DNA of 32,218 bases, from assembly GCF_900109705.1 (NCBI RefSeq), contig NZ_FOAI01000023.1:1-32218 (forward strand). The letters are read 5' to 3'. Shown here piece after piece: positions 1 through 18,304 of the stretch. How positions within the stretch are numbered: the first letter of the stretch is position 1; every line of letters starts with the position of its first letter. The notes under the pieces are model-generated. The model made no database searches and had not been told where the DNA came from. It was given only the letters and a program-made list of their open reading frames with translations. The translations under genes were made by a program, and so were the position numbers. Source of the stretch: Roseivivax marinus. Lineage in GTDB: Bacteria; Pseudomonadota; Alphaproteobacteria; Rhodobacterales; Rhodobacteraceae.

Positions 1-94
1 ATGACGGCTACACCGCATCGGGCCAGCTTCCCGTGCTCCCAAAGGGGTCAGTTTTGGACGCCGATAAGGGGTCCCGATTGGGCGCCGATTGACA
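1..94. mobile_element. IS21-like element, terminal region (partial)
   Basis: Two copies of the 12-mer TTGGRCGCCGAT lie at 54-65 and 78-89, the second running straight into TGACA at 90-94. Sub-terminal repeats ending in TGTCA (read on the minus strand) are typical of IS21-family ends. A short frame open from the left edge stops at TGA 90-92 and could be the tail of a transposition gene, but it is too short to assign. The rest of the element would lie left of the window. The family call is from memory of IS21 ends and is tentative. Confidence 0.4.
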
Positions 95-347
95 CTCTTG
101 CCAGTGACACCACCTATCCGAGTGCTTGGACCACGTTGGAACGCCCCCTCCCGCGGACCTGTCAGAGCGAAGTTCAGGCATCGCCTGATGCAAGTGCCGG
201 GCAAGCGTTTTGCTCCTCGAGCCGATGTTCCACGGACGGTCGGTTTTGGGTCACTCTTGCTTTCTTAGCAATGGGTGCCGGCTTCCCGGCTTTCACCGAG
301 GCTGGTAGCAAAGAGCATCCCTTGATCGCTCGTCTCGAAGGCACTGA
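95..347. other. non-coding stretch, no supported feature
   Basis: I see no convincing gene, terminator or repeat here. Open frames cross it on both strands but have no family-like sequence and no good ribosome binding site. GAAGG just before the ATG at 348 may serve the next gene. Confidence 0.4.
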
Positions 348-1172
348 ATGACATCCCAAAGATCCAAGTCGACGCCAGGAACTACTGACCCGGACACGCC
401 AGTAGACTATTCGATCTACCTTCACATTGACGGCATCAGCGGTGCGATGCCGTGGAGGATCGATGACTACGGGGATGCCGGGGCGCTGAGTGGTACCGAC
501 GTTCGCGAGATAGCTGAGCGTGCCGGCCTCGAAGCAAGCCTGATCAAGGAACTGTCCAGGCGTTTGGGCTACTGTCTCGACAGCGATACCACGGCGAACC
601 TCGTCGAAGTTCACCGCGCTACGGCCAGTGCAAGGGGCCGCAAACTTTTGGATGACCTCAAGCGTCGAGCTGAACGCATGCAGACGCAGTTTTCAAAAAT
701 TGCGGATGGAATGGGCAAGCTCGAACCTCGGTTCGCCTCCGAGGACGTTAGCAATCCACAACTCGCCGAAGCCAAGCAGCTCGCGGCCGACCTCGGACCG
801 GGAATACGACGCCTCGAGCAGCTTCTGAGCGGAATGGAGGATCGACCGGATGTCGCCTTCGACATGTCGCCGCTGGACAAACGTAAGGTCGTAGACAGGC
901 GCCGCCTGGACGTCATCATGCAATGTTGCGCGACTTGGGAAGCCAGCGGTCGTACATTGGCGTACAATACCGCTCCACAAGGGGCGAGCGGCCAACTCGC
1001 GGGACCGCTCCCGGATTTCATACAGTCGGTCGTGGTGAAGCTGACCGATCCTGCGCAAGAGCTTCACGGCGGAACGCTCCGGAATGACCTCGACTACTGC
1101 AGAAGCCGCCCCCAACAGGAGACTTGGGAAGATCTCGATAGTGAGGATATTGGTCTCTCGAGATCAAAGTAA
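348..1172 (+). CDS. uncharacterised protein beside recombinase operon
   Basis: A 274-aa soluble protein of unknown function, with no signal peptide or membrane segment visible. Residues 40-100 are helical, with a possible HTH-like stretch around DVREIAERAGLEASLIKELS. A charged, probably coiled-coil region follows, around residues 95-125. The C-terminal third (about 180-255) contains RRRLDVIMQCCATWEAS and GPLPDFIQSVVVKLTDP and looks like a conserved globular domain, but I cannot name a family. The ATG at 348 is preceded by GAAGG. It stands about 45 nt before the small genes of the recombinase cluster, so it may be cargo or an accessory of that element. That role is inferred from position only. 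Confidence 0.6.
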   Translation: MTSQRSKSTPGTTDPDTPVDYSIYLHIDGISGAMPWRIDDYGDAGALSGTDVREIAERAGLEASLIKELSRRLGYCLDSDTTANLVEVHRATASARGRKLLDDLKRRAERMQTQFSKIADGMGKLEPRFASEDVSNPQLAEAKQLAADLGPGIRRLEQLLSGMEDRPDVAFDMSPLDKRKVVDRRRLDVIMQCCATWEASGRTLAYNTAPQGASGQLAGPLPDFIQSVVVKLTDPAQELHGGTLRNDLDYCRSRPQQETWEDLDSEDIGLSRSK

Positions 1173-1202
1173 TCGATGCTTTAGCGCGGTGATCTCGGGG
1201 TC

Positions 1203-1221
1203 GTCATGGTCATGCCATGAC
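1203..1221. repeat. 7-bp inverted repeat at head of recombinase cluster
   Basis: GTCATGG (1203-1209) and CCATGAC (1215-1221) form a perfect inverted repeat around a 5-nt centre. The right arm covers the ATG (1217) of the small ORF below. It could be an operator for the small HTH protein or a start-codon hairpin. Confidence 0.4.
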
Positions 1222-1390
1222 ACGTGCCCCCGGCAATCCTTCTGAACGCGAGAACGACCTCACCAAGGTCGAGGCGGCTGTTCTGGCACTGGCGCGGCTT
1301 CTCGGTGAGGCCGCGGCGCGGGAGGCGTGTCTGGAGCCAACTCTGAGCGAGGATCGCGCCGATGCCCCCGAAGTTTCCGAAGACCACTGA
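1217..1390 (+). CDS. small 57-aa ORF upstream of excisionase-like gene
   Basis: This 57-aa acidic, helical frame (contains EAAVLALARLLGEAAAREA) overlaps the next small gene by 29 nt in another frame. It has no recognisable domain. Its codon use matches the neighbours and its length is typical of small accessory proteins ahead of recombinase genes. The start codon lies inside an inverted repeat and the ribosome binding site is weak, so translation is uncertain. The most likely role, if real, is in controlling the recombinases. This is inference from position. Confidence 0.4.
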   Translation: MTRAPGNPSERENDLTKVEAAVLALARLLGEAAAREACLEPTLSEDRADAPEVSEDH

Positions 1391-1571
1391 CCGCCCCGTG
1401 CCGCTGAAGACGGTCAAGGATGTCGCGCGAGAGGACAACGTGTCCGAGAAGACAGTCCGCCGCGCGATCACGGCGGGGCTTCTCGAGGTGATCCGTGTCG
1501 GTCCTGGCGGCCGCCTCATTCGCATCCACCCCGACGCGCACGCAGCCTACCGGCGGCGCATGAGCTGGTAG
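1362..1571 (+). CDS. small excisionase-like HTH DNA-binding protein
   Basis: A 69-aa basic protein. Residues 17-45 (VKDVAREDNVSEKTVRRAI, then TAGLLEVIRVG) fit the helix-turn-helix plus wing of excisionase/MerR-like small DNA-binding proteins, and the C-terminus carries GGRLIRIHPDAHAAYRR. Such proteins bind att or promoter sites and bias recombination direction or repress the integrase gene. It lies 166 nt upstream of the tyrosine recombinase on the same strand. The ATG overlaps the 57-aa ORF, so the two may be coupled. The DNA-binding fold is clear from the sequence; the role as recombination directionality factor is inferred. Confidence 0.65.
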   Translation: MPPKFPKTTDRPVPLKTVKDVAREDNVSEKTVRRAITAGLLEVIRVGPGGRLIRIHPDAHAAYRRRMSW

Positions 1572-1667
1572 GCCGCCCTGCCCCCTAAAGTACATTCATG
1601 TCAGCACCTTACGCGCCCTTCGGGAAGACCCCGTCGCCGTAAGTTGCGGACTTTCCATGCTACGGTT

Positions 1668-1682
1668 CTCCCGAATCGGGAG
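1668..1682. repeat. 15-bp palindrome in recombinase leader
   Basis: CTCCCGA-A-TCGGGAG is a perfect palindrome with a single central base, 55 nt before the recombinase ATG. It could be an operator for the small HTH protein or a recombinase arm/core site. No second copy was noticed. Confidence 0.4.
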
Positions 1683-1737
1683 GGCTGTCCACCCGAGGCC
1701 ACCCGAGACCCGTCCTGCCCTTCCGGAGCGTTTCCCG

Positions 1738-3444
1738 ATGACCCATCTGGCACCAATTTCGACCGACCGGATATTCGTCCCCATAGGCACGCCCAGCTTC
1801 GAAGACCTCATCGTGCGCATGACGGCGCAGGGCGAGCTCTTCCCGTCTCGCCGTCGGGACATGATTTCGGGACTGCGTCGCGTGGCCGAAGCTCTCGGCC
1901 TGCCGACGACCGACGTACCAGCCGATCCGGGGTGGCTGCGTCCGCGCATCGCCAAGGTGAGCCCGGTCCTCACGGGGGTGTCCGAGAAGACCTGGCAGAA
2001 CATCCGCAGCAACGCGCAGTCTGCCATGGCAGAATGCGGGATCGTCGCAAAGCGACAGCGCAATATCGAGGATCTCGGGCCGGACTGGCACACGCTTTGG
2101 CGCAGGATCCTCGATCTCAAGGACCCGACGCTGCCGCAGACTCTCTGCCGCTTCGTGCATTACCTGAACCGTGTGGGGACAGGCCCGGCGGACGTGACGC
2201 TCGCGCATGCCGAGGCGTTCCGTGATGCAGTGGCGCTGAACGAGATCAGCAAGGACCCGGAGCGCACCTTCCGTGCGGCGGTCGAAGGTTGGAACCTCGC
2301 GATCGCGCGCGTACCCGGATGGCCTGCGCACCGCATCGAGCTGCCATCGCGCCGGAAGATCATCGCCCTGCCCCGCGAGCGCTTTCCAGACACGTTCATC
2401 GCCGATCTCGACATGCTGATGAACCGGCTCGCCCGGCCCGATCCCCTGTCGGACCAGGGACGTGCGAGTGCGCTGAGACCGGAGACGATCAGGCAGTACC
2501 GCCGGCAGGTCATGCGCTTCGCTTCCGAGCTGGTTGCCGCCGGACAGCGGGCGACCGACCTGAGTGCCGTCACCGATCTCTTGCAGCCAGCGACTGCCGA
2601 ACGGGGTCTGCGTCAGATGCTGGCGCGCAACGAGGGCGAGCCGTCCCGCAATATCGCCGAGACCGCGGCGCTTCTGCGCAATCTCGCGCGCATACTCGCG
2701 GTGCCGCCGGAAGACCAAAACGCGCTCAGGGAGCTTGCGCGCAAGCTCAAGATGCCGCGGCAGGTCGGAATGACCAAAAAGAACAAAGCGCGTTTGCGCG
2801 TCCTACGAGAGCCGGCGCACAAGCGGCGTATTCTCACACTGCCCGAACGCGTTTTCGACCGCGCGGCTGGCAAGTCGAAGCCGCATACGGTGGCGCTCGC
2901 CCGCGAGGACGCGCTCGCCGTGGCGATCCTACTGCATTGCCCCATTCGGGCGAAGAGCCTCGCGAACCTCCACCTCGAGCGCCACATCCAGCGCCCCGGA
3001 GACGGACGTGTCTTCCTCGTACTCGAGGAGGCGGACACGAAGACCAAACGCTCCATCGAGTTTCAGCTCCACGGGGATGTCGTGCGTCTGCTCGACGCCC
3101 ATCTCGCGACGCGTGTGCCGTACATGTGTCCGGCCGGCACTCCCTACCTCTTCCCACAGCGATCCGGCGAGCGGGCAATCGGTCCGCAAGCTCTCGCGCG
3201 CCGGATCTCGAGACGAGTATGGTCGGAGACAGGGCTGGAGATGAACGCGCATCTCTTCCGCCACTTCGCGGTGATGAACTGGCTCGACGCCCATCCGGGC
3301 GAGTACGAGGTCGCGAAGCGCCTGCTCGGGCATTCCGCGCTCAGCCATACGATCAACATGTATTCCGGAATGGAGGTGACCTCCGCTGCCCGGGCGTTTT
3401 CAGATCTCATCACCGGGATGAAGGGTAAGGGAGAGAGCGCGTGA
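1738..3444 (+). CDS. tyrosine recombinase / site-specific integrase (first of trio)
   Basis: A 568-aa tyrosine recombinase that cuts and joins DNA through a 3'-phosphotyrosine. The catalytic set is complete: Arg404 (PIRAKSLANL), His505 and Arg508 (HLFRHF), His532 (LLGHS) and Tyr542 (NMYSG). The N-terminal 380 residues are longer than in phage integrases and probably hold arm- and core-binding domains. I chose the ATG at 1738 because GGAG (1725-1728) sits about 9 nt upstream. An upstream ATG at 1657 in the same frame would add 27 arginine/proline-rich residues and has no clear ribosome binding site. Its stop overlaps the next gene by 4 nt (GTGA). The trio is discussed in the findings. Confidence 0.9.
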   Translation: MTHLAPISTDRIFVPIGTPSFEDLIVRMTAQGELFPSRRRDMISGLRRVAEALGLPTTDVPADPGWLRPRIAKVSPVLTGVSEKTWQNIRSNAQSAMAECGIVAKRQRNIEDLGPDWHTLWRRILDLKDPTLPQTLCRFVHYLNRVGTGPADVTLAHAEAFRDAVALNEISKDPERTFRAAVEGWNLAIARVPGWPAHRIELPSRRKIIALPRERFPDTFIADLDMLMNRLARPDPLSDQGRASALRPETIRQYRRQVMRFASELVAAGQRATDLSAVTDLLQPATAERGLRQMLARNEGEPSRNIAETAALLRNLARILAVPPEDQNALRELARKLKMPRQVGMTKKNKARLRVLREPAHKRRILTLPERVFDRAAGKSKPHTVALAREDALAVAILLHCPIRAKSLANLHLERHIQRPGDGRVFLVLEEADTKTKRSIEFQLHGDVVRLLDAHLATRVPYMCPAGTPYLFPQRSGERAIGPQALARRISRRVWSETGLEMNAHLFRHFAVMNWLDAHPGEYEVAKRLLGHSALSHTINMYSGMEVTSAARAFSDLITGMKGKGESA

Positions 3445-4478
3445 GCCGACCGAAGGTCATGTGGCCGGAGGCTGACCGGGAGATGTTCGAGACCCTGTTC
3501 ACGACCGGCGGACCACTGGACGCGCGAGGTCCGCTCGCGCATGTCCGTTCGACCACGCGCAAGAGCCTCGCAGGCCGCTATGCGCAGTGGTTGAGCTGGC
3601 TCTATCGCGCCGCGCCGGATGCACTCCGATCGCCCCCAGTCGAGCGTTCCGCCATGGACAGGATGACCGATTGGCTAAACGACCGGGAGGACCTTGCGCC
3701 GATGTCGCGGCTCGCTCTGTTCGACGCCATTTTGCAGGTCCTGTCGGCTGCCCACCCCCACCTCGACTGGAACGATCACAAGGCTCTTCGAGCCCGGCTG
3801 CGGCGCGCGGCCGGGCACGGCACGCAGGCCCGCAAGCAGGGCCGGATCTTGTCGAGCCGCGTGCTCCTCGATGCCGGGCTCCGCGTCTCCGAGACCGCCG
3901 CGGCACTGCCCGCCGGGAGAATGGCGCGCGCGATCGGTCTCCGCGACGGGGCGATGATCGCCCTTCTCGCACTCCTGCCGATGCGGCGGCACGCATTGGC
4001 CGGACTGCAGATCGGACCCTCGGTCTTTGTCAGCGAGACCCGCATAACGATCGCACTTCCCGAGCTGCTCGTGAAGTCGGGCCGGCCCTGGGAGACCGAA
4101 GCGCCCGAGCCCTGCCTGTCCGTCCTCCGAAGGTATCTGGACGACGGCCGTCCGGTTCTGGCCGCACGCGGTGCCGGTGACGATCCCCATCTCTGGCTCG
4201 ACCGCTCCGGCAAGGGACTGAGCTACGATTACATCGGGCCACGCATCGCTTCGGTCACGGAGAGGGTTCTGGGCAAACGCATCCCGCCTCATTTCTTCCG
4301 CGACGCAGCCGCGACGACGCTGGCGCGCATGTCGCCCGAGAGCACCAAGCTGATCCGGCCGATCCTTGGCCACAGCAGCGACAGGACCGCAGAACGGCAC
4401 TACAATCACGCAAGGTCAATAGAGGCCGGGCGCAGCTATGCCGCTCTTGTGGCACACCTCAAGGAGACCTCCCGATGA
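3441..4478 (+). CDS. tyrosine recombinase (second of trio)
   Basis: A 345-aa tyrosine recombinase, distinct from and shorter than the first. The active-site residues are Arg182 (PMRRHALAGL), His284 and Arg287 (HFFRDA), His311 (ILGHSS) and Tyr321 (RHYNH), so it should be active. It starts with GTG in a 4-nt overlap with the upstream recombinase stop and ends in a 4-nt ATGA overlap with the serine recombinase. Paired tyrosine recombinases in one transcript recall Tn554 TnpA/TnpB and RIT elements, where the proteins act together. Joint action here is inferred from the coupling. Confidence 0.88.
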   Translation: MSRPKVMWPEADREMFETLFTTGGPLDARGPLAHVRSTTRKSLAGRYAQWLSWLYRAAPDALRSPPVERSAMDRMTDWLNDREDLAPMSRLALFDAILQVLSAAHPHLDWNDHKALRARLRRAAGHGTQARKQGRILSSRVLLDAGLRVSETAAALPAGRMARAIGLRDGAMIALLALLPMRRHALAGLQIGPSVFVSETRITIALPELLVKSGRPWETEAPEPCLSVLRRYLDDGRPVLAARGAGDDPHLWLDRSGKGLSYDYIGPRIASVTERVLGKRIPPHFFRDAAATTLARMSPESTKLIRPILGHSSDRTAERHYNHARSIEAGRSYAALVAHLKETSR

Positions 4479-6133
4479 CCCGCGTCGCCATCTATGCCCG
4501 GTTCTCGTCTGCCCTGCAGCGCGAAGCGTCAATCGAGGACCAGGTCCGCGTCTGCTCCGATCGCGCCACACGCGAGGGCTGGACCGTGATGCACACCTTC
4601 ACCGACATGGCGATCTCCGGCGCGTCGGCGAACCGCCCGGGCCTGCAGAGCCTGCTGGATCATGCCGCGCGCGGTGGCATCAACGTGGTGCTCTGCGGAG
4701 CCCTCGACCGTCTCAGCCGGGACCAGGCTGACATTGCGACGATCTACAAGCAGCTCGCCTTCCAGGGCGTTCGCATCGTGACCGTGGCGGAGGGCGAGGT
4801 CAGCGAGCTGCATGTGGGCCTCAAGGGCACGATGAACCAGCTCTTTCTCAAGGACCTTGCCGCCAAGACCCATCGCGGCCTGCGGGGTCGCGTGGAAACC
4901 GGACGGTCCGGGGGCGGCAATGCCTACGGCTACGATGTCGTCCGCCGCCTGGATCCCGATGGAGAGCCGGTGAAGGGCGAGCGCGCGATCAATCAGGGCG
5001 AAGCGGAGATCGTGCGCCGCATCTTCCGCGAGTTCGCGGACGGCGCGTCGCCCATCGCCATCGCGCACGGACTGAACGCGGAGCACATTCCCGGCCCGCG
5101 CGGCAAGCTTTGGCGCGATACCGCGATCCGCGGACACCGCACCCGCGGCACCGGCATTCTCAACAACGAGCACTATGTCGGCCGCCTGGTCTGGAACCGC
5201 ATGCGCTACGTGAAGGACCCGGCGACCGGCAACCGTGTGTCGCGCATGAACCCCGAGAGCGACTGGACAAGAACGGAAGTACCGGAGCTGCGCATCGTCG
5301 ATGATGTGCTCTGGGACCGGGTGAAGAAGAGGCAGGGCGAGATCGACGCCACGCCCCGTGTGGCCGGCATAAAGAAGAGCCGCTTCTGGGAGAACAAGCG
5401 CGGCAGGTATCTCCTGAGCGGCAAGCTTTTCTGCGGCGCGTGCGGCGGCAGCGTCAGTAACCAGGGTGGCGACTACCTTGCCTGCTCGAATGCGCGCAAG
5501 CTCAAGACCTGCGATCACACCCGCTCGTACAAGCGCGATGATATGGAAGACGCGGTTTTGGACCTGCTGCGGGAACGCCTGATGCAGCCGGATGCGGTGG
5601 CGGAGTTTGTAGTGGCGTACACCGAGGGGGTGAACGGCGACCGCAAGGCGGACGAAGCCGTCCGCAAACGCAAGCAAATGGCCCTGGCCCAGACGGAGCG
5701 GCAGTTGAACGGCCTCTACGCAGCCATAGCGGACGGGCTGCGCACACCGGGCCTGCTGCAGCAATTGCACGATCTGGAGGCCAGGAAGTCGGACCTCAAG
5801 ATCGTGCTCGAGGCCCCTGCCCCGTCACCGGTGCGCCTGCATCCGAAGCTGCCGGAGCTCTACCGCGCAAAAGTCGCCGAGCTTGCGGAGAGCCTGCGCG
5901 ATTCGGAGATCAAGACGCAGGCCTTGGACATCTTGCGGGGATTGATCGAACGCATCGTCGTACGATCCTCCGGGAAGGGCGAGAGTATGACGATCGAGCT
6001 GGAGGGGGCGCTGACGGCGATGCTGGACGCGGCCCAGCCGGGCGCGCTGTCGGATGCCGATGCAAGTTCGATAAAAGTGGTTGCGGGAGGACGCAACCGC
6101 CGTAGCCTACGCGTTTTCAAGTGCCGAATTTGA
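4475..6133 (+). CDS. large serine recombinase (third of trio)
   Basis: A 552-aa serine integrase/resolvase. The N-terminal catalytic domain (1-150) has IYARFSS with nucleophile Ser11, then the EDQVR and LDRLSRD motifs of the family. The recombinase domain follows (about 165-290; GYDVVRR, NNEHYVGRLVWNR). A zinc-ribbon (about 318-350) carries CGACGG with later cysteines (YLACSN, KTCDH), and a coiled-coil and C-terminal region complete the usual large serine integrase plan. The start ATG overlaps the second tyrosine recombinase stop by 4 nt. Finding both chemistries, phosphotyrosine and phosphoserine, in one coupled transcript is unusual. Confidence 0.92.
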   Translation: MTRVAIYARFSSALQREASIEDQVRVCSDRATREGWTVMHTFTDMAISGASANRPGLQSLLDHAARGGINVVLCGALDRLSRDQADIATIYKQLAFQGVRIVTVAEGEVSELHVGLKGTMNQLFLKDLAAKTHRGLRGRVETGRSGGGNAYGYDVVRRLDPDGEPVKGERAINQGEAEIVRRIFREFADGASPIAIAHGLNAEHIPGPRGKLWRDTAIRGHRTRGTGILNNEHYVGRLVWNRMRYVKDPATGNRVSRMNPESDWTRTEVPELRIVDDVLWDRVKKRQGEIDATPRVAGIKKSRFWENKRGRYLLSGKLFCGACGGSVSNQGGDYLACSNARKLKTCDHTRSYKRDDMEDAVLDLLRERLMQPDAVAEFVVAYTEGVNGDRKADEAVRKRKQMALAQTERQLNGLYAAIADGLRTPGLLQQLHDLEARKSDLKIVLEAPAPSPVRLHPKLPELYRAKVAELAESLRDSEIKTQALDILRGLIERIVVRSSGKGESMTIELEGALTAMLDAAQPGALSDADASSIKVVAGGRNRRSLRVFKCRI

Positions 6134-6346
6134 GAGAAACATTCTGGGTGGATACCAGCACGCGGATGGACTTATGTTCACTGTAGGCTTTGACCAAGAG
6201 ATCACATATCTGCACGCACCGTCCCGGGACTCATTACCTGACTAAGTGAGAAAGGCTATGAGAGGGTCGGCCACGGTAGCGGCGGGATGAACCTGCTACT
6301 TCGTAAGTGGCTGGGCGCCGCAAGCATACTGCTTCTAGTCGTGTCC
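6134..6346. other. convergent intergenic region between recombinase and mob genes
   Basis: The recombinase operon and the mobilization operon end facing each other here. I see no strong GC stem followed by a T-run on either strand. A 42-aa frame starting at 6287 with a hydrophobic N-terminus runs into the mob gene end and is not convincing. If the recombinases act at a nearby att site it could lie here, but no matching core elsewhere was recognised. Confidence 0.3.
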
Positions 6347-6589
6347 TCACATCTCTGGGCCATCCAATCCGTGGTTGTCAGTTTCGGCGCGCCGCAGAGC
6401 GTCCGGGTTACCTGAAAGTTGTTCACGAAGAAGCCGCTGCCATGCCAGATCGGGCGTGCCGGACGTCAACTCGAACACGACCTCCTCCGCGCCGACTTCG
6501 ACAACGAGGTATTCCACCGCGTCCGGGCCAGGCTGGAAAAAGACACGCCGCGGTCCTCCGTAAATCTCCCACACGAGGCCTAGCGTCAC
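6347..6589 (-). CDS. small 80-aa gene at 3' end of mob operon
   Basis: An 80-aa frame from GTG 6589. Its start overlaps the stop of the 118-aa coiled-coil gene by 4 nt (GTGA), the usual coupled arrangement. The sequence looks like a compact alpha/beta protein (GLVWEIYGGPRRVFFQ, then VEYLVVEVGAEEVVFEL) and is clearly more protein-like than the stretch before it in this frame. No family recognised. It is in the same frame as the relaxase, which has no intervening stop, so it could instead be a C-terminal domain of a read-through relaxase product. Confidence 0.45.
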   Translation of the reverse strand: MTLGLVWEIYGGPRRVFFQPGPDAVEYLVVEVGAEEVVFELTSGTPDLAWQRLLREQLSGNPDALRRAETDNHGLDGPEM

Positions 6590-8125
6590 TGCGAGCCATT
6601 CGGCTCGCGAGCTGGCGGCAGGCCGAGCATTTCGATCAAGTGGTCGATTTTCGCGGCCATCTCTGCTTGGGTCGCGGCCTTCCGGGCGAACGCCTCCTCC
6701 ATCCGCCGCTCCATGGCCTGGAGGTCGTCCAGCGTCACTGCCCCTGCCAACCTCGGGGCCGCCTCCCCCATCAGCCGCGACGCGCTCGTCATCGCGCGCT
6801 CGACGCGTGAGAGCTGCTCGATGATGTCGTCGAGCCGGTCCGCTAGCGATCCGTCCGTCCGGCGTTCGAGGAGCGTTTCGAGGAGTTCGATCAAGCGTTC
6901 CATGCGGCTGCTGACGGGATTTGCGTCGAGTGAGTTCGTCACAGGTCGTCTCCAATGTGAGTGCGAGGCTTTTCAAGGATTGAGGGGCAAGAGCAGCGAA
7001 CGCGCGCGCGAGCAACAGGTCGGATAGAGTCGTCATCAGGCGCCCGATCAGGCGTCCGACCAGAGAACGCCGCGCGGCGCCGGATGCGATCAGGGGTCGA
7101 GGACGATCGAGTAGTTCTGCAGGATCCGGCAGGATGACGTCCGGCCAGGTGTCGGCCGACAGGTGGCGGCGATTGAACGCCGCCCGGCGTCTATGCGCTT
7201 CGGCGAGCTTCGCCGGAGCCGCGGCAATCTCCTTCTGCCGCACCATCATCGCGTCGAAGGGATCGATCGCATCCTCCGCACCGTCTCCGAGCGCGGCGCC
7301 CCCGAAGGTAACTCGGGTCCCCTGCCCGTAGATCGGCCCGCACGTGATGTCGCGTTCGGACTGGCTGGTGACGGCCCAACCGTATGATCCGAGGCCTGCG
7401 TCAACATGTGCCACGATCTCCTGCCGTGTTGTAAGACCCAGCGCGGTCGCTTGGCGGCAAAGCGACCAGGCCCGGTAGCGAGGATCGTTCTGATCGACGC
7501 CGACCCGCTCGCCGCGCTCGACCCGACGCATCAACTCAGCGGCCTCCTTGGCCATCCATCCCGGCGGCGTCACATGCCGCCGACGCATCGGGCAGCGGGG
7601 ATCGGCCCAGCGATAAGTCGCGTTGACGACGTCGGTGTAGGCATCCCACTCGTCTCGGCTCGCGCGTCCGGGCGGATGAGGGTTGATGCTTCTGAGCTGA
7701 TCGCCAGGCAGTCCGACTGCACGCGGCATGAGAACATTGACTTCGAGCCGGCCGAGATGCGTGTGCGTCGACGCGAGAACCGGCGGTCGCGCGGCGCCCG
7801 GCACGCCGGCATAGGCCACCTCGACCAGCAGTCGCAGGGCACCACTCACGGCTCGAGGTCCAGAACCAACGCGTGCATTAAATGTCCGAACGTCGAGCTC
7901 ATCCGCGCTGAAGCTCAAGACGCACGACCTGTAGCGAGACCGGAACGGCAGAGCGTCGATATACGCACCGACGAGAGATGGAGAGCCGAGCAGAATTTCC
8001 GGCGCGGGATCCCGCCCAGCGATCACCGATCGACCATTGATCTGTTTCCGAACGCGCACGTCCAAGAAATAACCGATCGCGCAAGAGGCCGGTCCGCTCT
8101 GATATTTTGACCACGTAAGGATCAT
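6347..8125 (-). CDS. relaxase/mobilization nuclease-like protein, frame open to 3' end of operon
   Basis: A 592-aa open frame. The N-terminal part resembles a conjugative relaxase: VLSFSADELD, then STHTHLGRLEVNVLMPRAV, whose histidine pair and following N fit a metal-binding HUH-like motif, then RSINPHPP. A relaxase nicks oriT and stays on the 5' end of the transferred strand. The protein looks natural up to about residue 395 (LKSLALTLETTCDEL). Residues about 396-510 become R/G/P/A-rich because a real 118-aa gene occupies another frame there. The last 80 residues again look like protein. The true end is therefore uncertain: a lost stop by a 1-nt shift near 6940, or a genuine overprinted tail. 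The start overlaps the MobC-like gene by 4 nt. Confidence 0.6.
   Translation of the reverse strand: MILTWSKYQSGPASCAIGYFLDVRVRKQINGRSVIAGRDPAPEILLGSPSLVGAYIDALPFRSRYRSCVLSFSADELDVRTFNARVGSGPRAVSGALRLLVEVAYAGVPGAARPPVLASTHTHLGRLEVNVLMPRAVGLPGDQLRSINPHPPGRASRDEWDAYTDVVNATYRWADPRCPMRRRHVTPPGWMAKEAAELMRRVERGERVGVDQNDPRYRAWSLCRQATALGLTTRQEIVAHVDAGLGSYGWAVTSQSERDITCGPIYGQGTRVTFGGAALGDGAEDAIDPFDAMMVRQKEIAAAPAKLAEAHRRRAAFNRRHLSADTWPDVILPDPAELLDRPRPLIASGAARRSLVGRLIGRLMTTLSDLLLARAFAALAPQSLKSLALTLETTCDELTRRKSRQQPHGTLDRTPRNAPRTPDGRIASGPARRHHRAALTRRARDDERVAADGGGGPEVGRGSDAGRPPGHGAADGGGVRPEGRDPSRDGRENRPLDRNARPAASSRAEWLAVTLGLVWEIYGGPRRVFFQPGPDAVEYLVVEVGAEEVVFELTSGTPDLAWQRLLREQLSGNPDALRRAETDNHGLDGPEM
6586..6942 (-). 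CDS. 118-aa coiled-coil protein inside the relaxase reading frame
   Basis: Starts at GTG 6942 with GGAG 7 nt upstream and encodes 118 aa dominated by heptad-like helices (RMERLIELLETLLERR, LADRLDDIIEQLSRVE, MERRMEEAFARKAATQA). It is a likely coiled coil with no signal peptide or membrane segment. It lies wholly within the relaxase open frame on the same strand, in a different phase. The clean ribosome binding site, the amphipathic sequence and the GTGA overlap with the 80-aa gene all say it is real. A role in the relaxosome or in partner binding is plausible from position only. Confidence 0.6.
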   Translation of the reverse strand: MTNSLDANPVSSRMERLIELLETLLERRTDGSLADRLDDIIEQLSRVERAMTSASRLMGEAAPRLAGAVTLDDLQAMERRMEEAFARKAATQAEMAAKIDHLIEMLGLPPAREPNGSQ

Positions 8126-8481
8126 CTCGCGCCCCTTCGTCCGGCACCGCCATCCGCGACGGCCGCGGCGACGTCGTCGAGCCGATCGGCGATCCGGTCG
8201 AGGGCATCCGCGAGTGAGAGGTGGTCGAGTGCGGCGTCGCGCCCTGCGATGCTGTCCGAGATTTCCGTCAAAGTTTGGTAGTATCCAGTCAAGAGACGGA
8301 TCGTATCGGCGTCGACAGGGCGTGAGGTGTGTTCAGGGCGCGCAAGCGCCGCCTCGACGAGATACGCCGACATCGAGAGCTTGGCCGCCTCGGCCCTTTC
8401 GCGCACGATTTGCCATTCCATTTCGGTCGCGTGAATCCTGCGCGGCTTCGTTTCGCTCTCACGATTCCGACGATGTCCCAT
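8122..8481 (-). CDS. MobC-like ribbon-helix-helix mobilization accessory protein
   Basis: A 119-aa protein. After a basic N-terminus (GHRRNRESETKPRR) comes RIHATEMEWQIVRERAEAA, then SMSAYLVEAAL, the strand-helix-helix pattern of MobC/relaxosome RHH proteins. The C-terminal half is helical (LADALDRIADRLDDVAAAV). MobC proteins bind oriT and help the relaxase open the nic site. I chose the ATG at 8481 because AAAGGAG lies 7 nt upstream. The frame is open further, to 8553, but without a ribosome binding site. The stop overlaps the relaxase start (ATGA), so the two are co-translated. Confidence 0.68.
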   Translation of the reverse strand: MGHRRNRESETKPRRIHATEMEWQIVRERAEAAKLSMSAYLVEAALARPEHTSRPVDADTIRLLTGYYQTLTEISDSIAGRDAALDHLSLADALDRIADRLDDVAAAVADGGAGRRGAR

Positions 8482-8890
8482 GCTCCAGCTCCTTTCCTGC
8501 GGGCCCGTCCGAGGGGCCTCGCTCCAGATCGGCAGATACCGATCACGTCTCATCGGATTATCCGAACAAGATGACCTCGCAGGCGAGCTCTGAGTGGCTG
8601 GGCGATCTGCAGATCGAGGCTGCCGAACGAAGACCGGAAAAGAGAATTATTGAGTCTTGCCAGCCTCTTAAAGGAACCGAACGATCTGCTCAGAGCTGGC
8701 ATGGGCCAGTGCCGGACCACTCGACAATTTTGCCATCCGGCCTCACGCTCGGCGGCACTCCATAAAGAATTTCGCGGGAAGTTGGCGGGCCAAACGGACC
8801 ACATAACGCAAAGACACGTAGTGCCCGGTTGCCCCAAACTCGGGCAAGGTGTCGGGCCGCGGGCCCTCGACAACCGGGCGAAACGGCGTG
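8482..8890. other. intergenic region upstream of mob operon, possible oriT
   Basis: About 400 nt without a convincing gene. It must carry the promoter of the mob operon. At its right side GCCCGGTTG (8823-8831) pairs with CAACCGGGC (8871-8879), a perfect 9-bp inverted repeat. Inside lies a second stem, GGGCC/GGCCC (8854-8858 and 8862-8866) around GCG. TGCCCG (8822-8827) can also pair with CGGGCA (8841-8846), so alternative folds exist. A structured repeat next to relaxase and MobC genes is what an oriT looks like. A terminator for the gene ending at 8891 is the alternative, though there is no T-run. Confidence 0.4.
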
Positions 8891-13094: not shown

Positions 13095-14450
13095 TTAAAC
13101 AGGGTCAAAAGCTAACGGAAATCCATAGAGCGATTGGGCCTCGATATCCAGCTGACCGCGCAGGGTCCCTTCGCGAACCGCACAACGGATGCGTGACTTG
13201 ATCAGGTCCGCTCGTTCTTCGACGAGTTCGGCACTGCGCATCGAGTAGTCCTGCTCTTGCTCCAGCAGTTCGGCTAATCTGCGTGTGCCGAGATCGAAGT
13301 ACTGGTTCCGGTAGAGATCCCGCGTTTCGGCAAGGAGCGCAATCTGACGCTCCAGCAGCCCAACACGTTGTGCGCCGGTTGTGAGGCTTCGGGTCAGTCC
13401 CCTCTCCTCAAGGTCCTGCTCGAGGGCCACGGTCTCGACCCGAGCCGCGGCGGCGGCGAGCGCGTTGCGTGCCGCCCGGGCGCGGGCCGTTAGTGCGCCA
13501 CCCTCCAGAACGTCCGACCGCACGCCGATGTTCAGACCGAAGGAGGTGCTGCCGTCTTCCAAGTCCCCCCTCACCAGAGGCGAGGCGGTGATCCGGGGCA
13601 GCCGCGCCCGCTCGGCCCGTTCGAGCTCGAGGCGGGAACGAAGGAATTCGAGCCTTACCCGCACCATCTCCTCGGACAGCGCCGAGGCGCCGCAGGACCC
13701 TGCTATGAGGTCGATCCGCGCACCCTCAGACTGACCGCTGAGCCGGTACAGCTTATCGCGTGCCTCAGCCAGGGCGAGTTCCGTGTCGAGCACGGTGAAC
13801 TCGGCCGCCTGCACGCGCGAACGAGCTTCCAGCGCCTCGGTCCGGGTGGAAGCGCCATTCTCGATCCGCGCCGCGACCAATCCTTCCAGGTTCCGCAACT
13901 GCCGCAGATGCGCAGTGCGGACGGACAGCAGCTCCTTGTGCATCGCCACGTCCTGCACCGCGAAGAGGACGTCGCTCAGGGTCTCGTCGACCACCGTCTG
14001 AAACTCGAGGAACCTCAGCTGGAGATCGAGATCAGCGACCTTGATCGCCCGTTCGGTGTCGCCGAAGGAGGTGAGTTGCTGCTCTCCGACGAGGTCGACG
14101 GCGGCGTCCCCCTGCCCCGCATCCCCCACCCCGCCGCCCAGCGACAGGCTGAGACTAGGAAATAGCGCGGCCCGGGCGACTCTGACCTCATCGGCGCTGG
14201 CCGAGATGAGGCTTGCGGCTTCGCGCACCGAGGGGCTTATGAGGACCCCGTTTCGGGCCGCATCGGCGGCGGACTTGCCGGACGACCGGCCGAGTGCGGG
14301 CAGGGTGGCCGCATGGTCGCGCATTGCCGCTTCCGTCCCCTCGGGACCACGCAGGCCGGAACAGCCGGCCAGCAGCGCAACCGCCAGGATGGCAAGTCTT
14401 CCTGCCCGGCCGTCTCGCCCGGCCACCACTCTCTCACGCCTCGGGAGCAT
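13095..14450 (-). CDS. TolC-family outer membrane efflux lipoprotein of T1SS
   Basis: A 451-aa outer membrane channel protein. A lipobox at LLAGC gives Cys30 as the likely lipidation site. The body shows two homologous helical halves with TolC/OEP-type sequence (AALFPSLSLSLGGGVGD; EARSRVQAAEFTVLDTELAL; RARLPRITASPLVRGD; ELLEQEQDYSMRSAELVEERADLI). It would supply the outer membrane exit for the adhesin secreted by the ABC exporter and HlyD adaptor encoded upstream. ATG 14450 follows the SmpA/OmlA-like gene stop by 4 nt with AAGG as ribosome binding site. Last intact gene of the operon. Confidence 0.85.
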   Translation of the reverse strand: MLPRRERVVAGRDGRAGRLAILAVALLAGCSGLRGPEGTEAAMRDHAATLPALGRSSGKSAADAARNGVLISPSVREAASLISASADEVRVARAALFPSLSLSLGGGVGDAGQGDAAVDLVGEQQLTSFGDTERAIKVADLDLQLRFLEFQTVVDETLSDVLFAVQDVAMHKELLSVRTAHLRQLRNLEGLVAARIENGASTRTEALEARSRVQAAEFTVLDTELALAEARDKLYRLSGQSEGARIDLIAGSCGASALSEEMVRVRLEFLRSRLELERAERARLPRITASPLVRGDLEDGSTSFGLNIGVRSDVLEGGALTARARAARNALAAAAARVETVALEQDLEERGLTRSLTTGAQRVGLLERQIALLAETRDLYRNQYFDLGTRRLAELLEQEQDYSMRSAELVEERADLIKSRIRCAVREGTLRGQLDIEAQSLYGFPLAFDPV

Positions 14451-14454
14451 TGCC

Positions 14455-14910
14455 TTAGTTCACCCCCCCGGTGACAAGGTCGGCACACTGCGGGCGGCGC
14501 CAGACGGCTCGTTCCAATAGGTCGTCCCCGTCGAAGAAGACCATGTACTGGCAAATCAACTGGTCGTCCTGCAAGAAGGGCAATGCGAGCTGGAATTCCC
14601 ATGCGCCGTTCTGGTGCTGACCGATCGGGCGGCCGAGCACGGTCAGCAGCTCTGCGCGGGTCTGGCCGACGGCGACCTGCCGGACTTGGTCGAGGCTGAG
14701 CTCGGTCCCGACGCGGGAATACTGCTGGTCCATGCTGACGTAGGCGCGGTCGGCCCGGGTGAAGTCGAGACCCGGGTCGACGGCGTTCAGCCGGTCGACG
14801 GCCGGGACCTCTGCCGCGACGGACAATGCGCCGGCGGCCAGGGTGAGCGAAGTGGCCAGCGCGGCGAAGGTGGTGGGCAGGGGACGGTTTTGTCGTGATG
14901 CTTGGGTCAT
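14455..14910 (-). CDS. SmpA/OmlA (BamE)-like periplasmic protein in T1SS operon
   Basis: A 151-aa exported protein. The signal peptide has a hydrophobic core (FAALATSLTLAAGAL) with cleavage near VAA-EV. The mature part ends in the SmpA/OmlA pattern: LDQVRQVAVGQTRAELLTVL, then WEFQLALPF, ICQYMVFFDGDDLLERAVW. BamE-type domains bind outer membrane partners; no lipobox is present here. The frame is open to an ATG at 14982 that overlaps the HlyD stop by 4 nt. I prefer 14910 since the extra 24 residues would give an odd signal peptide, but the coupled start is possible. The role in adhesin export or anchoring is inferred from the operon. Confidence 0.68.
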   Translation of the reverse strand: MTQASRQNRPLPTTFAALATSLTLAAGALSVAAEVPAVDRLNAVDPGLDFTRADRAYVSMDQQYSRVGTELSLDQVRQVAVGQTRAELLTVLGRPIGQHQNGAWEFQLALPFLQDDQLICQYMVFFDGDDLLERAVWRRPQCADLVTGGVN

Positions 14911-14978
14911 GTCAGGGCCTCTAGGTCGGTTGGGTCTGATCCTGTTAAACGCGGCCGCCTGGCCAGGAAATTTCTGAA

Positions 14979-16166
14979 TCATCGCTCACGCAGAGCGTCC
15001 TGCGCGCGGTTGAACGGCTTGATAAGGTATTGCCAGACCGTCTTTTCGCCGGTCTGGATGTCGACGGTGGCGATCATTCCCGGAACGATGGGAAAGCGGC
15101 TCCCGTTGGCGTCCTCGAGGTAGTTTTCCTCGGTCCGGATGTAGATGCGGTAGTAGACCTGCTCGGGGTTCACCTCGTCCCTAACGGTGTTGGGCGAGAT
15201 CGTACGCACCTCGCCCTCGAGCCCCCCGAAGATGGAGTAGTCGTATGCCGACAGGCGCACCGTCGCCTCTTGGCCGGGGTGGATGTAGGCGATGTCTCGA
15301 GGCGAGATCCGGGTTTCGATCACCAGCTGGTCGCCCACGGGCACCACGGTCATCAGCCGCCCCCCCGGCGGCACGACGCCGCCGATGGTCGTCACCTCGA
15401 TGTCGTTGACGATACCGCGCATGGGCGCTTGGAAGGTGAGCCGTTCGAGCTGGTCCGCCCGGCCGCGCAGGATCGAGCCTTGCACCTCGGCCTCGGAGTT
15501 CACGCGCTGGAGCTCCTCGCCGATCTGCACGCTGCGTTCGGTTACCAGCCGGGCGATCTCCAGCTCGACCTGCGCCGCCTCACGCCGTAGCCGGATCACC
15601 TCAACCCTGCTGGTGGCACCTCTTTCCTGGAGCCGTTCGGTGATCTCGAGCTCTTCGCGGGTCAGCTCCAACTCGTCCCGGAGCCCGGAGAGGGATTCGT
15701 CGAGGCTGAGCCGGCGGGACCGGAAGAGCGCGAGTTCATTGGCTCGCAGCTGGTCAAACTCCGCCCCGTCGAGCGCGGCGGGGAAGGTAACGGCTTCGGC
15801 CTCGTCCAGTTCCGCCCGCAGCCGGGCGGCGGCGGCGATGGCGGAATGGTAGCGGGCGGCGGCCTCTTCCAAGTTGGAGGCCGAGCGGGTGGCGTCGAGC
15901 CGGGCCAGCACCTCGCCCGCCTCGACCGTGTCGCCCTCGCGCACGAAAAGCTCCGAGACGATGCCGCCCTCGAGCGACTGGATGACCTGTTCGCGGGAGC
16001 TGGGCACCACCGTCCCCTGCCCGCGCGAGACCTCGACCAGCGGGTAGTACCACGCCCAGCCGAGGAAGGCCGCCAGCATGAGGAAGACCAGCCAGACCAG
16101 CCGCCGCTGCGGGCGGGTGTCGGTGTAGGCCGAAGGCCCGCCAAGGGAGGTGTCGATCACGCTCAT
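14979..16166 (-). CDS. HlyD-family type I secretion adaptor (LapC-like)
   Basis: A 395-aa membrane fusion protein. One TM segment (about 25-42, VWLVFLMLAAFLGWAWYY) follows a short cytoplasmic tail. A biotinyl/lipoyl-like half comes next (SLEGGIVSELFVREGDTVEAG), then a long alpha-hairpin (about 105-235, rich in E/L/R heptads). The beta-barrel and second lipoyl half follow (GGVVPPGGRLMTVVPV, then ISPRDIAYIHPGQEATVRL), with the typical HlyD C-terminus (IVPGMIATVDIQTGEKTVWQ). It bridges the ABC exporter and the TolC-family channel. It overlaps the ABC gene by 4 nt. Confidence 0.92.
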   Translation of the reverse strand: MSVIDTSLGGPSAYTDTRPQRRLVWLVFLMLAAFLGWAWYYPLVEVSRGQGTVVPSSREQVIQSLEGGIVSELFVREGDTVEAGEVLARLDATRSASNLEEAAARYHSAIAAAARLRAELDEAEAVTFPAALDGAEFDQLRANELALFRSRRLSLDESLSGLRDELELTREELEITERLQERGATSRVEVIRLRREAAQVELEIARLVTERSVQIGEELQRVNSEAEVQGSILRGRADQLERLTFQAPMRGIVNDIEVTTIGGVVPPGGRLMTVVPVGDQLVIETRISPRDIAYIHPGQEATVRLSAYDYSIFGGLEGEVRTISPNTVRDEVNPEQVYYRIYIRTEENYLEDANGSRFPIVPGMIATVDIQTGEKTVWQYLIKPFNRAQDALRER

Positions 16167-18304
16167 GCCGCCCGCTTTCCGGCGCGAAGCTGGGCCAGCA
16201 CCTCGTCCTTCGGCCCGTCGAGCAGGACCGCCCCGTTGCTGACCACGATCAGCCGGGTCGCCATCCGCAGGACCGCGGGCCGGTGGGTGGCCACGATGAC
16301 CGAGATGGAGGGGTCGAGCTTGCCCAGAAGGTCGATCACCGCCGCCTCGGAGACCTCGTCGAAGGAGGCGGTGGGTTCATCGAGCAGCAGCACGTTGGGC
16401 CGCCGCAGCAAGAGCCGCGCCAGAAGCAGGCCCTGTTTCTGGCCGCCGGAGAGGCCGAGCCCGCCTTCCTGCACCATGTGGTCGAGCCCGTCGGGCAGGG
16501 CCTGCACGAAGTCCGCCAGCCCCATCTTGCCCAGCAGGCCGAGGATGGCGTCGTCCTGCGCCCCGGGGGCGCCGAGGGTCAGGTTCTCGCGCAGCGTGCC
16601 GTGGAACAGCCGGGCGTCCTGCCCCATCAGGCCGATGTCGCGGCGGATGTCGCCGGGGTCGACAAGGCCCATGACCACGTCGTCGACCCGGACCTCGCCC
16701 GCCATCGGCTCCAGCAGGCCGGCGAGCCCGGCCAGAAGCGTCGACTTGCCCGCGCCGTTGCGTCCGAGGATGGCGATCCGTTCGCCCGGTTCGACCCGAA
16801 GGTCGGCGACCTTGAGCGCGGGGGCCTGCGGGGCGTGGCCGAATACCGCCCCCTTGAGCCGGAAGGACCCGTGGATCACGGGTCGGTGGATGCGCGTGTC
16901 CTCGGCCGTGGTATCGACCGGCAGCGCCATCAGCTGGTCCAGCGCCTTGCGGGCGACCTGCGCCTGCTGCCACCGGCTGAGGACCTGGGTGACCGAGGCG
17001 AGCGGCGCCAGCATCCGCGAGGACAGCATGGAGGCGGCGACCAGCACGCCGGTGCTCATGTCGCCGGCCATGACCATCGGCGTGCCGAAGAAGATGACCA
17101 CCGCAAAGACCCCGCCCTGCACCGTCTGCGCCCAGGACCCCAGCCGCCCGACGAGGTCGCGAAGTTCCATCGCGGAGCCGGAGGTCGTCTCGTTGTAATG
17201 GTTCCACAGGTTCTGGAACCGCGTTTCGGCCTGCAGCGACTTGATGTCGTCGAGCCCCTGGATCGCCTCGACCAACATGGCGCTGCGCAGGGCGCTTTCC
17301 CGGGTGTTCGCCTCGGCCAGCCGCCGCAGCCGTTTCTGCGCCAGCAGCCCCGGCAGGACGAGCAGCACCATCGCCGCGAGCGGGATCCAGACCAGCACCC
17401 CGGCGATGTACCAGAAGAGCACGCAGAAGAGCGCAAAGAACGGCAGGTCCGCGATGGCCGCGACGGTGGTCGAGGTAAGCATCTCGCGGACGTGCTCCAG
17501 CTCCCGGATCTGCGAGATGAAGGTCCCGGTGGACCGGGGCCGCGCGGTGTTGCGCACCCTGAGCGCGTGGCCAAAGACCCTGTCGGAGATCCGCAGGTCC
17601 GCCGCCTTGCCCGCCACGTCGGTGATCCGGCTGCGGGCGAGTTTCATTAGCAGGCCGAAGCCCATCGCCATCATCACCCCGATGAACAGCACCCAGAGCG
17701 TGCTCATCGATTGGCCGGGCACGACCCGGTCGTAGACCTGCATGGCAAAGATGGTGCCGGCCAGAGCCAGCACGTTGGTCACCGCCGAGGCCACCATGAC
17801 CGACCGGTAGGGCCGCATGTCCGCCAGCGCGACGCTGCGCAGCCAGTCCGGGCGCCAGGGTTCGATATAGGCGTCGATCCGGCGGTCGGGCCGGCTGGTC
17901 AGGGGCCGCAGCACGTAGAGCCGGCGAAGCCGGGCGGCGAGGTCGTCCCGCCCTATGGGCGTCTCCAGCCCCCCGTCCCCGGCGAGGACGACGCCGAAGC
18001 CATCCGAGGTTTCGCGTTCGATGACGCCGATTTCGCCGCTCTCGAATTCGGCCACCACCGGCAGGCGCAGCTGGGACAGGGTCCTGTCCCGCTTGTCCGC
18101 CTGGCGGATCGTCAGGCCCGCGGACCGGGCCAGCGTCGCCAGCCTGTCCCCTTCGGCCGCCCAAGACAGGTCGACCCGCACCCGTTCGGGCGACACGGCA
18201 AGACGGTACTGCGCAGCTACGCGAAGCACCGCCTCTGTCCAGCCTTGGTGCGTGCCCCCCGTCGCGGCCGCAGCCGCCCCGGTCGTCGTGGGATGGTCTG
18301 CCAT
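16163..18304 (-). CDS. type I secretion ABC transporter with C39-like domain (LapB-like)
   Basis: A 713-aa exporter half-transporter. Residues 1-130 fit a C39-peptidase-like domain but contain no cysteine, so it is the non-proteolytic docking form seen in RTX/LapB exporters. The six-TM domain spans about 160-460 (VMVASAVTNVLALAG; TLWVLFIGVMMAMGFGLL; LVWIPLAAMVLLVLPG). The ATPase has Walker A GRNGAGKST (about 514-522), signature LSGGQK (about 616), Walker B LLLDEPT (about 637) and a THR switch. It powers secretion of the giant adhesin encoded 4 nt upstream, and overlaps the adaptor gene by 4 nt. Confidence 0.93.
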   Translation of the reverse strand: MADHPTTTGAAAAATGGTHQGWTEAVLRVAAQYRLAVSPERVRVDLSWAAEGDRLATLARSAGLTIRQADKRDRTLSQLRLPVVAEFESGEIGVIERETSDGFGVVLAGDGGLETPIGRDDLAARLRRLYVLRPLTSRPDRRIDAYIEPWRPDWLRSVALADMRPYRSVMVASAVTNVLALAGTIFAMQVYDRVVPGQSMSTLWVLFIGVMMAMGFGLLMKLARSRITDVAGKAADLRISDRVFGHALRVRNTARPRSTGTFISQIRELEHVREMLTSTTVAAIADLPFFALFCVLFWYIAGVLVWIPLAAMVLLVLPGLLAQKRLRRLAEANTRESALRSAMLVEAIQGLDDIKSLQAETRFQNLWNHYNETTSGSAMELRDLVGRLGSWAQTVQGGVFAVVIFFGTPMVMAGDMSTGVLVAASMLSSRMLAPLASVTQVLSRWQQAQVARKALDQLMALPVDTTAEDTRIHRPVIHGSFRLKGAVFGHAPQAPALKVADLRVEPGERIAILGRNGAGKSTLLAGLAGLLEPMAGEVRVDDVVMGLVDPGDIRRDIGLMGQDARLFHGTLRENLTLGAPGAQDDAILGLLGKMGLADFVQALPDGLDHMVQEGGLGLSGGQKQGLLLARLLLRRPNVLLLDEPTASFDEVSEAAVIDLLGKLDPSISVIVATHRPAVLRMATRLIVVSNGAVLLDGPKDEVLAQLRAGKRAA

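Follow-up and report, generated by a model that had tools for sequence, protein, structure and literature searches.

Why would a single gene string carry site-specific recombinases of both the tyrosine and the serine chemistry? The question is raised by contig C8 of Roseivivax marinus, which was analyzed whole (32,218 bases, "the window" in what follows) and in which a small helix-turn-helix (HTH) gene, two tyrosine recombinase genes (tyr1 and tyr2), and a large serine recombinase gene (ser) follow one another. The two-chemistry module is real and recurrent among relatives. We give a probability of about 0.57 to the following explanation taken as a whole: Ser would integrate an island at the initiator tRNA gene (tRNA-fMet), and the tyrosine pair would act for resolution at an inverted repeat upstream of tyr1. 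The four genes are:

1362 to 1571, forward strand: HTH, a small excisionase-like protein (HTH_17), partner of the tyrosine pair, recognized from Pfam and from its context upstream of Tyr1.
1738 to 3444, forward strand (the reading frame opens at 1657): Tyr1, a long tyrosine recombinase with an N-terminal extension of about 190 residues, conserved start at 1738.
3441 to 4478, forward strand: Tyr2, the shorter tyrosine recombinase, with homology to about 350 residues at the C-terminus of Tyr1.
4475 to 6133, forward strand: Ser, a serine recombinase of the large type that probably integrates the island at tRNA-fMet.

All four genes are intact in the window, and the recombinase genes overlap by 4 nt at both joints, GTGA between tyr1 and tyr2 and ATGA between tyr2 and ser. 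An earlier note on this DNA had described exactly this arrangement, two tyrosine recombinases with catalytic sets and a Ser11 serine recombinase joined by 4-nt overlaps, and the overlaps as read and the conservation of the residues bear it out. Indeed, in 30-row alignments of divergent relatives, many rows being only 25–30% identical, the Tyr1 residues R, K, H, R, and Y are present in 30/30 rows and the second H in 27/30. For Tyr2, R, K, and the second R are present in 30/30 rows and the first H in 29/30; the second H and Y are found in 29/30, the remaining row having a gap there. S11 of Ser is invariant in a 10-row alignment. Comparing two Salipiger bermudensis records, the ratio of nonsynonymous to synonymous substitution rates (dN/dS) was 0.29–0.30 for both tyrosine genes.

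Regarding family assignment, Ser matches Resolvase (PF00239), Recombinase (PF07508), and Zn_ribbon_recom (PF13408), all above the cut-offs, which is the domain set of a large serine integrase. Tyr2 matches Pfam Phage_integrase. Tyr1 has no Pfam match, its match to the XerC profile is below the cut-off, and profile searches at the thresholds used assigned its extra ~190 N-terminal residues to no family; its AlphaFold2 model, computed from a two-row alignment (predicted local distance difference test score 55, predicted template modeling score 0.34), was too poor for a fold search. The HTH protein matches Pfam HTH_17 above the cut-off (3.3e-6) and the TIGR01764 excisionase profile below it (1.8e-4). 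Its gene had been placed at 1217 and considered coupled to the recombinases; it starts at 1362 and is uncoupled from Tyr1. For Tyr1 itself, a start at 1738 (568 residues) appears more likely than one at 1657, because the block between HTH and 1738 is conserved in eight aligned sequences, the window included, together with the letters CCCGATGA at 1738. No Rfam family matched the window at gathering thresholds.

Is the combination found elsewhere? Tyr1 matches were obtained in 29/295 genomes of the same family, in 15/385 genomes of the class, and in 16/72,556 plasmid records (from Roseomonas, Azospirillum, Pukyongiella, and Microvirga), six of which were opened (H1, H2, H3, H4, H6, and H10). The genome counts are lower bounds, at most a few candidates having been scored per genome. 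Thirteen genomes with weak or short matches (11 and 2 from two genome searches) were kept out of the Tyr1 loci, and one of them, G240, re-entered via Ser. Leaving aside loci that were cut by contig ends, masked, or decayed (L043, L089, L091, L086, and L055), a second copy in G275 (L040), and a locus from a near-identical genome (L085), there were 30 Tyr1-anchored loci with a readable 3′ side. Ser adjoins Tyr2 on the same strand in 23 of them and is absent from six (Pukyongiella plasmid p4, three Roseomonas plasmids, L045, and L092). At L046 (G024:C5), Ser lies about 9 kb off in the opposite orientation, facing a tRNA at one contig end, with Tyr2-Tyr1-orfU inverted at the other (orfU is described below). 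Thus, the three-gene order that was to be searched for in other genomes recurs in 23/30 loci, and the serine gene is not the chance neighbor, absent from most relatives of the pair, that had been named beforehand as the outcome against the proposal. As for whether the three genes always travel together, they do so in these 23 loci but not in the six Ser-less ones, and 41/58 Ser places show no tyrosine gene, some of them being cut by contig ends.

The distance between Tyr2 and Ser was measured in 24 trios, with start codons set by rule; L229 and L236 were reached via Ser, and L052 and L288 are trios outside the 24. The genes overlap in 13 trios, are 1–9 bases apart in five, and 116–975 bases apart in six. 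At L037, on an Azospirillum oryzae plasmid, about 22 kb separate Tyr1 from Tyr2-Ser. A phage origin was considered and rejected: none of 50,697 phage records had a Tyr1 match, and viral contigs gave one weak partial match.

The target of the serine enzyme can be read from its 3′ side. In relatives, ser is followed by the 3′ half of tRNA-fMet (anticodon CAT) and, in several, by 5S rRNA. In 19/24 trios, the ser frame enters the antisense strand of the tRNA and stops at a TGA beside the anticodon, the protein ending like ..VAGAGFEPATFRL; counting L050, where ser stops 28 bases short of the tRNA, ser runs into the tRNA 3′ half or stops beside it in 20/24. What the C-terminus of Ser looks like depends on whether the element is integrated or fused: in the former case the antisense tRNA supplies the last ~15 residues and the stop codon, in the latter an element's left end does (window 4475–6133; compare L039, L044, L058, and others).

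In the window and in L084, the sequence past ser is not a tRNA but TGGTTGCGGGRG-NN-CGCAACC, which we read as a fused end (attP). From these two loci, a left junction was predicted, the same sequence being expected at the far end of integrated islands. In a whole-genome search, it was found at eight places in 7/27 genomes, and the reversed control gave 0. These places are the two sources, three in cis with a trio, and three on draft contigs (G031 and G137). The distances in cis are 35 kb from the tRNA in G034, 11.6 kb from the repeat beside ser in G035, and 28 kb in G666. In G031, the junction marks a far end and also a fusion at the ser end, with about 140 bases common to the two. The far ends of G104, G107, and G141 have the same 12-nt repeat and a different left arm. 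Overall, the direct repeats of the islands measure 12–18 bp; relatives thus carry the two marks of a tRNA-integrated island, an integrase gene beside a tRNA 3′ end and a direct repeat at the far end.

An unoccupied site was also available for comparison. The joined flanks of the G104 island match the other tRNA-fMet locus of the same genome over 466 bp without gaps: there is full identity in the repeat and in 400 bases of the tRNA side, and the left flank agrees at 49/54 positions. On this match, the other locus is an unoccupied copy of the integration site. The comparison of integrated with empty sites, suggested earlier as a way to the attachment (att) ends, could be made in this way for G104. 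In G031, G035, and G141, the 12-nt repeat ends just past the center of the attP dyad, an arrangement that fits a 2-bp serine crossover, which is suggestive only.

For the second reading offered in the earlier note, a stacked defense of one attachment site, the analysis found evidence neither way, although the tRNA-fMet site is crowded with tandem islands. Partial tRNA copies of 46 nt beside ser in L040, L051, and L082 first pointed to a tyrosine crossover in the anticodon loop. For the trio this reading was dropped, since other elements of the arrays end in such copies too and since the left ends of the trios sit at the 12–18 nt repeat of the acceptor end. Elements with 46-nt repeats reaching the anticodon loop were seen at tRNA-fMet in L051 (6178, reverse strand), L082 (13865), L110, L113, L121, L128, L129, and L135; they perhaps form a second class of islands, with another crossover in the same tRNA gene. 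By eye, TTGAT motifs are present in several sequences beside tRNA-fMet.

Which enzyme makes these joints? Elements that carry Ser without the tyrosine pair allow the question to be addressed. Ser homologs (E ≤ 1e-70) are present in 53/295 family genomes, with 65 places listed. Fifteen of these fall in loci already labeled as trios (L046, which is rearranged, and L040, a partial copy, are counted here), and the analysis covered 43 of the other 50. Among the 43 non-trio places, two have an upstream tyrosine gene, both being cut by contig ends, and 41 have none in view. The tRNA-fMet 3′ half terminates 31/43 of these loci, while three others (L256, L263, and L264) end, by eye, in what look like other tRNAs. 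A family-wide search for the far end, allowing one mismatch, matched 19/295 genomes, with one match for the reversed control. In genomes without a Tyr1 match, the left junction lies in cis with serine-only islands, 29 kb (G271), 44 kb (G067), and 75 kb (G203) from the ser end. Since the att sites are common to serine-only elements in genomes without a Tyr1 match, Ser is very probably the integrase of the island, inserting at the initiator tRNA gene, and we infer that Ser, and not the tyrosine pair, makes these joints. The composite integration system proposed in the earlier note is therefore kept in one part, both chemistries standing in a recurrent gene string, and apparently reversed in the other: integration had been given to the tyrosine enzymes and resolution or excision to the serine enzyme, whereas Ser is very probably the integrase and the tyrosine pair a candidate for resolution or control.

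What, then, is the tyrosine pair? HTH lies upstream of Tyr1 in 29/32 loci, the exceptions being L043, L046, and L090, the last of which is cut by a contig end; in serine-only loci, one weak match (E 0.004) was found among 41. A further gene accompanies it:

348 to 1172, forward strand: orfU, a 274-residue protein with no Pfam family above the cut-off.

Homologs of orfU are found upstream of Tyr1 in 10/32 loci (the close clade and the Ser-less Pukyongiella plasmid) and in 0/41 serine-only loci; in L043 and L046, where HTH was not found, orfU adjoins instead. Within its close clade, orfU travels with the tyrosine module. Furthermore, across 23 loci the tree distances of Tyr1 and Tyr2 agree (0.63, 0/2000 permutations as high), while those of Tyr1 and Ser (0.09, 444/2000) and of Tyr2 and Ser (0.09, 307/2000) show no agreement, with the reservation, which counts against our reading, that the distances are partly saturated. 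On a Ser tree of 66 rows, the trio label takes 8 changes, of which at least 5 fall on starred branches, versus 20.2 when shuffled: the trios are clustered, yet belong to more than one clade. On the Tyr1 tree, the Ser-less label shows no clustering (7 changes versus a shuffled mean of 6.5). The clearest exchange is L042, with tyrosine genes of the window's clade and Ser from another clade, the genes still overlapping. By these comparisons, HTH-Tyr1-Tyr2 is a module separate from Ser, with a differing history.

These observations bear on the alternative that the tyrosine pair and HTH are accessories of Ser, all three enzymes working on the tRNA-fMet sites, for example in excision or directionality. 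Tight coupling to ser recurs across differing Ser lineages, as this alternative would have it, and the overlap in L042 is 1 nt though its Ser groups with a clade having gaps of 116–153 nt. Nevertheless, serine-only elements share the same left junction, and Ser-less tyrosine modules exist on plasmids, so that neither module needs the other; we consider the accessory role unlikely.

A candidate site for the pair was found in the window:

1619 to 1675, no strand: a 57-bp inverted repeat with arms TTCGGGA/TCCCGAA, perhaps with an inner dyad; for the tyrosine pair it is a candidate site of recombination or control.

The block between HTH and tyr1 is conserved in the eight close modules aligned, one of them on a Ser-less plasmid; in divergent modules its letters differ and its symmetry is kept. 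Coherently, the inverted-repeat score of 29 loci has its peak at a single spacing, 45, where it was 234 versus a shuffle mean of 184.4 (standard deviation 4.7, highest 196, eight shuffles each). In a free search over lengths of 24–97 bp, exact 7-base arms at a total length of 53–59 bp were found in 17/29 loci, including the window. At 14 sites that we picked from an earlier site search, the inner dyad (offsets 4–7, unused in finding the sites) paired at 35/56 positions versus 23.5 when permuted, a value reached in 2/5000 permutations. A promoter scan of positions 1150–6500 gave a single match, within tyr2 (shuffle mean 0.6).

The arms, searched in 24 genomes with one mismatch allowed, matched in nine: the tyr1 site once in each of eight genomes, and a stray match in G141. 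In the eight genomes with a tyr1 site, the window's included, no second copy was found. This is relevant to the alternative that the pair integrates the element at a second chromosomal target, giving it two ways in. Such a role would have parallels, because movement by several tyrosine recombinases is described for GInts and proposed for RIT elements, as far as the cited accounts go (PMC5385486, PMC3414803). We regard it as very unlikely, given that no further copy of the site was found and given the presence of HTH directly upstream of tyr1, across the repeat, in 29/32 loci. Indeed, HTH and tyr1 keep to either side of the repeat, which is unlike an integration attP.

The inverted repeat is instead a candidate resolution site or operator, and these data do not separate the two. 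In the tyrosine resolvase systems TnpI-IRS of Tn4430 and TnpS/TnpT-rst, one inverted-repeat site directly precedes the recombinase gene, as the candidate site does here; their sites differ from that of the window in size and arm spacing. On the other hand, excisionase-like proteins bind repeats. The repeat could then be the operator of HTH, and the tyrosine pair the leftover integrase of an older element captured beside Ser. The crowded hotspot would offer the occasion, with its tandem islands, some bearing the 46-nt direct repeats of a different crossover, and the trio label needs at least five changes on the Ser tree. However, both tyrosine active sites are conserved in some 30 divergent rows, dN/dS is 0.26–0.30, and one gene order is kept in 23/30 loci, whereas passive capture should decay and vary. 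We therefore hold a leftover pair to be improbable.

The explanation we prefer, integration by Ser and resolution by the tyrosine pair, would work as follows. The trio would be the tRNA-proximal end of an integrated island. Direct repeats of 12–18 bp would result when Ser recombines attP (of sequence TGGTTGCGGGRG-NN-CGCAACC in the type found in the window) with the initiator tRNA gene at its 3′ end. HTH-Tyr1-Tyr2 would be a second, self-contained recombination module directly upstream, often translationally coupled to ser, in which Tyr1 and Tyr2 could form a two-subunit enzyme on the inverted repeat between HTH and tyr1. As the site is seen once per genome, it would come into play upon dimerization of the element, resolving multimers or tandem copies, and it may double as the operator of the operon. 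Action of the pair at the inverted repeat is thus predicted from the comparisons above; resolution as its specific role is tentative, and we put it at somewhat less than an even chance. More speculative, and in our opinion doubtful, is a complete two-chemistry life cycle in which Ser moves the island in and out of tRNA-fMet, a heteromeric Tyr1-Tyr2 enzyme with HTH as architectural factor resolves multimers, circular or tandem, at a dedicated nested site of about 57 bp, and the modules have been recombined among lineages and re-coupled several times.

Several observations weigh against this explanation. At the serine sites, the left flank of G104 has no match to the other tRNA-fMet locus beyond 54 bases; the direct repeat overruns the dyad center by one base (G034 and G666) or by six (G104 and G107); and the CGCAACC arm is absent from G104, G107, and G141, so that the 2-bp serine crossover, which fits, stays a proposal. 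At the inverted repeat, exact 7-base arms at 53–59 bp are absent from 12/29 loci, and the repeat sits where the tyr1 promoter is expected, for which reason a plain operator would explain it equally. The earlier site search had a floor of 55 bp, and in 4 of the 23 loci it accepted, including the window, a different stretch was the one accepted. A single exact site length of 55 bp, which coincided with that floor, was consequently withdrawn in favor of the 53–59 bp of the free search, and no exact length is claimed. Lastly, many relatives have broken copies: Ser is in two frames in L034, L042, L046, L059, L083, and G678, Tyr2 is in two frames in L034 and L038, and Tyr1 is in five pieces in L052.

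At its right end, the island in the window has an attP-like joint in the place of a tRNA; the far end lies beyond the contig. Two features describe it:

6078 to 6098, no strand: attP-like joint TGGTTGCGGGAG-GA-CGCAACC, the island's right end (repeat 6078–6089) fused to an element's left end; Ser reads into the joint.
6099 to 8553, reverse strand: probable start of a neighboring element, not part of the trio, with relaxase-like (6347–8125) and NikA-like (8122–8553) genes.

The relaxase profile match (1.6e-10) is below the cut-off and the NikA-like match above it. Copies of the relaxase region that are 82–85% identical occur elsewhere in the same genome, the similarity starting only past the joint, at 6306 or 6583. 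The same side of the joint also holds genes of a two-component system and an operon for type I secretion. Since the end of ser meets the attP-like joint, the relaxase and adhesin genes probably come from a neighboring element. The adhesin cluster consists of a 3316-residue BapA-like protein with immunoglobulin and cadherin repeats (18309–28259, reverse strand), with ATP-binding cassette transporter, HlyD, and outer-membrane efflux genes beside it (13095–18304, reverse strand).

Two origins of the joint were considered. The simplest picture is that the window would be part of a tandem array, the trio island lying outside another island, and an excised or free circle is a possible source. Tandem insertion is simpler because the host genome, G000, has two serine-only elements at tRNA-fMet (C28 and C35) and because, in G141, the ser end is duplicated (267 bp, 99.6%) immediately outside the island. 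A circular contig was rejected, as the window ends do not overlap. The first ~95 bp of the window (1–95) are 98–100% identical to sequences near other contig ends (C7 twice and C17). They are probably repeated sequence, perhaps from the end of an insertion sequence, at which the assembly broke. Elsewhere in the window's own genome, two repeats resembling far ends lie about 100 bp from each other (L298, G000:C21 near 380005; L195); their left arms differ, and they may be what is left of stacked islands.

How does the trio compare with known systems? Ser resembles the large serine integrases of phages and integrative and conjugative elements in its Resolvase-Recombinase-Zn ribbon order and, by sequence, in a probable dyad att site with a short common core. 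Coherently, its profile matches include the TP901-1 integrase (2.6e-19) and TnpX in PDB, and the PHROG 95 integrase (4e-87); the match to CcrB (9.5e-26) is below that profile's cut-off. It differs in being tied to the tRNA-fMet 3′ end, its gene often reading into the tRNA, and in the coupling of a subset to two tyrosine recombinases.

Several multi-recombinase systems also have points in common with the trio. In Tn554-type elements, in the parts of the source describing them, a long tyrosine recombinase adjoins one of normal length, and many have a small third protein (PMC3414803). They are described there without a serine recombinase, whereas the third gene here is serine, so that the trio falls outside this family, set apart by gene content and order only. 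In Tn554, where the tyrosine enzymes TnpA and TnpB come before TnpC, the gene order is short-long; in the window it is reversed, with the long gene first. RIT elements are close in layout, with three adjacent recombinase genes overlapping by 4–8 bp; they are about 3.5 kb long, are found mainly in alpha- and betaproteobacteria, and, as the cited account describes them, have three tyrosine enzymes and no serine enzyme, unlike the trio with its serine third gene, which is therefore not a RIT element (PMC3414803). The GInts (ginABCD), in the available part of their description, likewise have recombinase genes and a small protein in one operon at an island end, with imperfect direct repeats of 10–17 nt; they carry three tyrosine recombinases and GinD instead of two tyrosine and one serine recombinase, with the small gene last where HTH is first here, so that the trio is not a GInt, and the word "serine" is absent from the main text of the GInt paper (PMC5385486). 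Strand-biased circularizing elements (SEs) share the plan of two integrases and two auxiliary proteins in one operon, without a serine recombinase, and their synteny blocks are reported only in Gammaproteobacteria, within the portion of the account at hand (PMC10214605).

Our search of the open-access literature, most subscription journals being outside it, found no description of two tyrosine recombinases and one serine recombinase in one operon, and the two-chemistry module is apparently undescribed so far. The described multi-recombinase islands (GInts, RITs, and SEs) are all-tyrosine, as far as the cited accounts extend (PMC5385486, PMC3414803, PMC10214605). With a recurrent two-chemistry operon, in which the integrase role can be assigned by att sites and the tyrosine pair has a conserved candidate site apart from these, the question of why an island carries more than one recombinase can be put to the test on short, defined pieces of DNA. 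A serine recombinase family with a mapped target in the initiator tRNA, a gene of every bacterium, is brought forward as well. If the proposed life cycle is true, the repeated re-coupling of both modules would mean that the pairing itself is selected.

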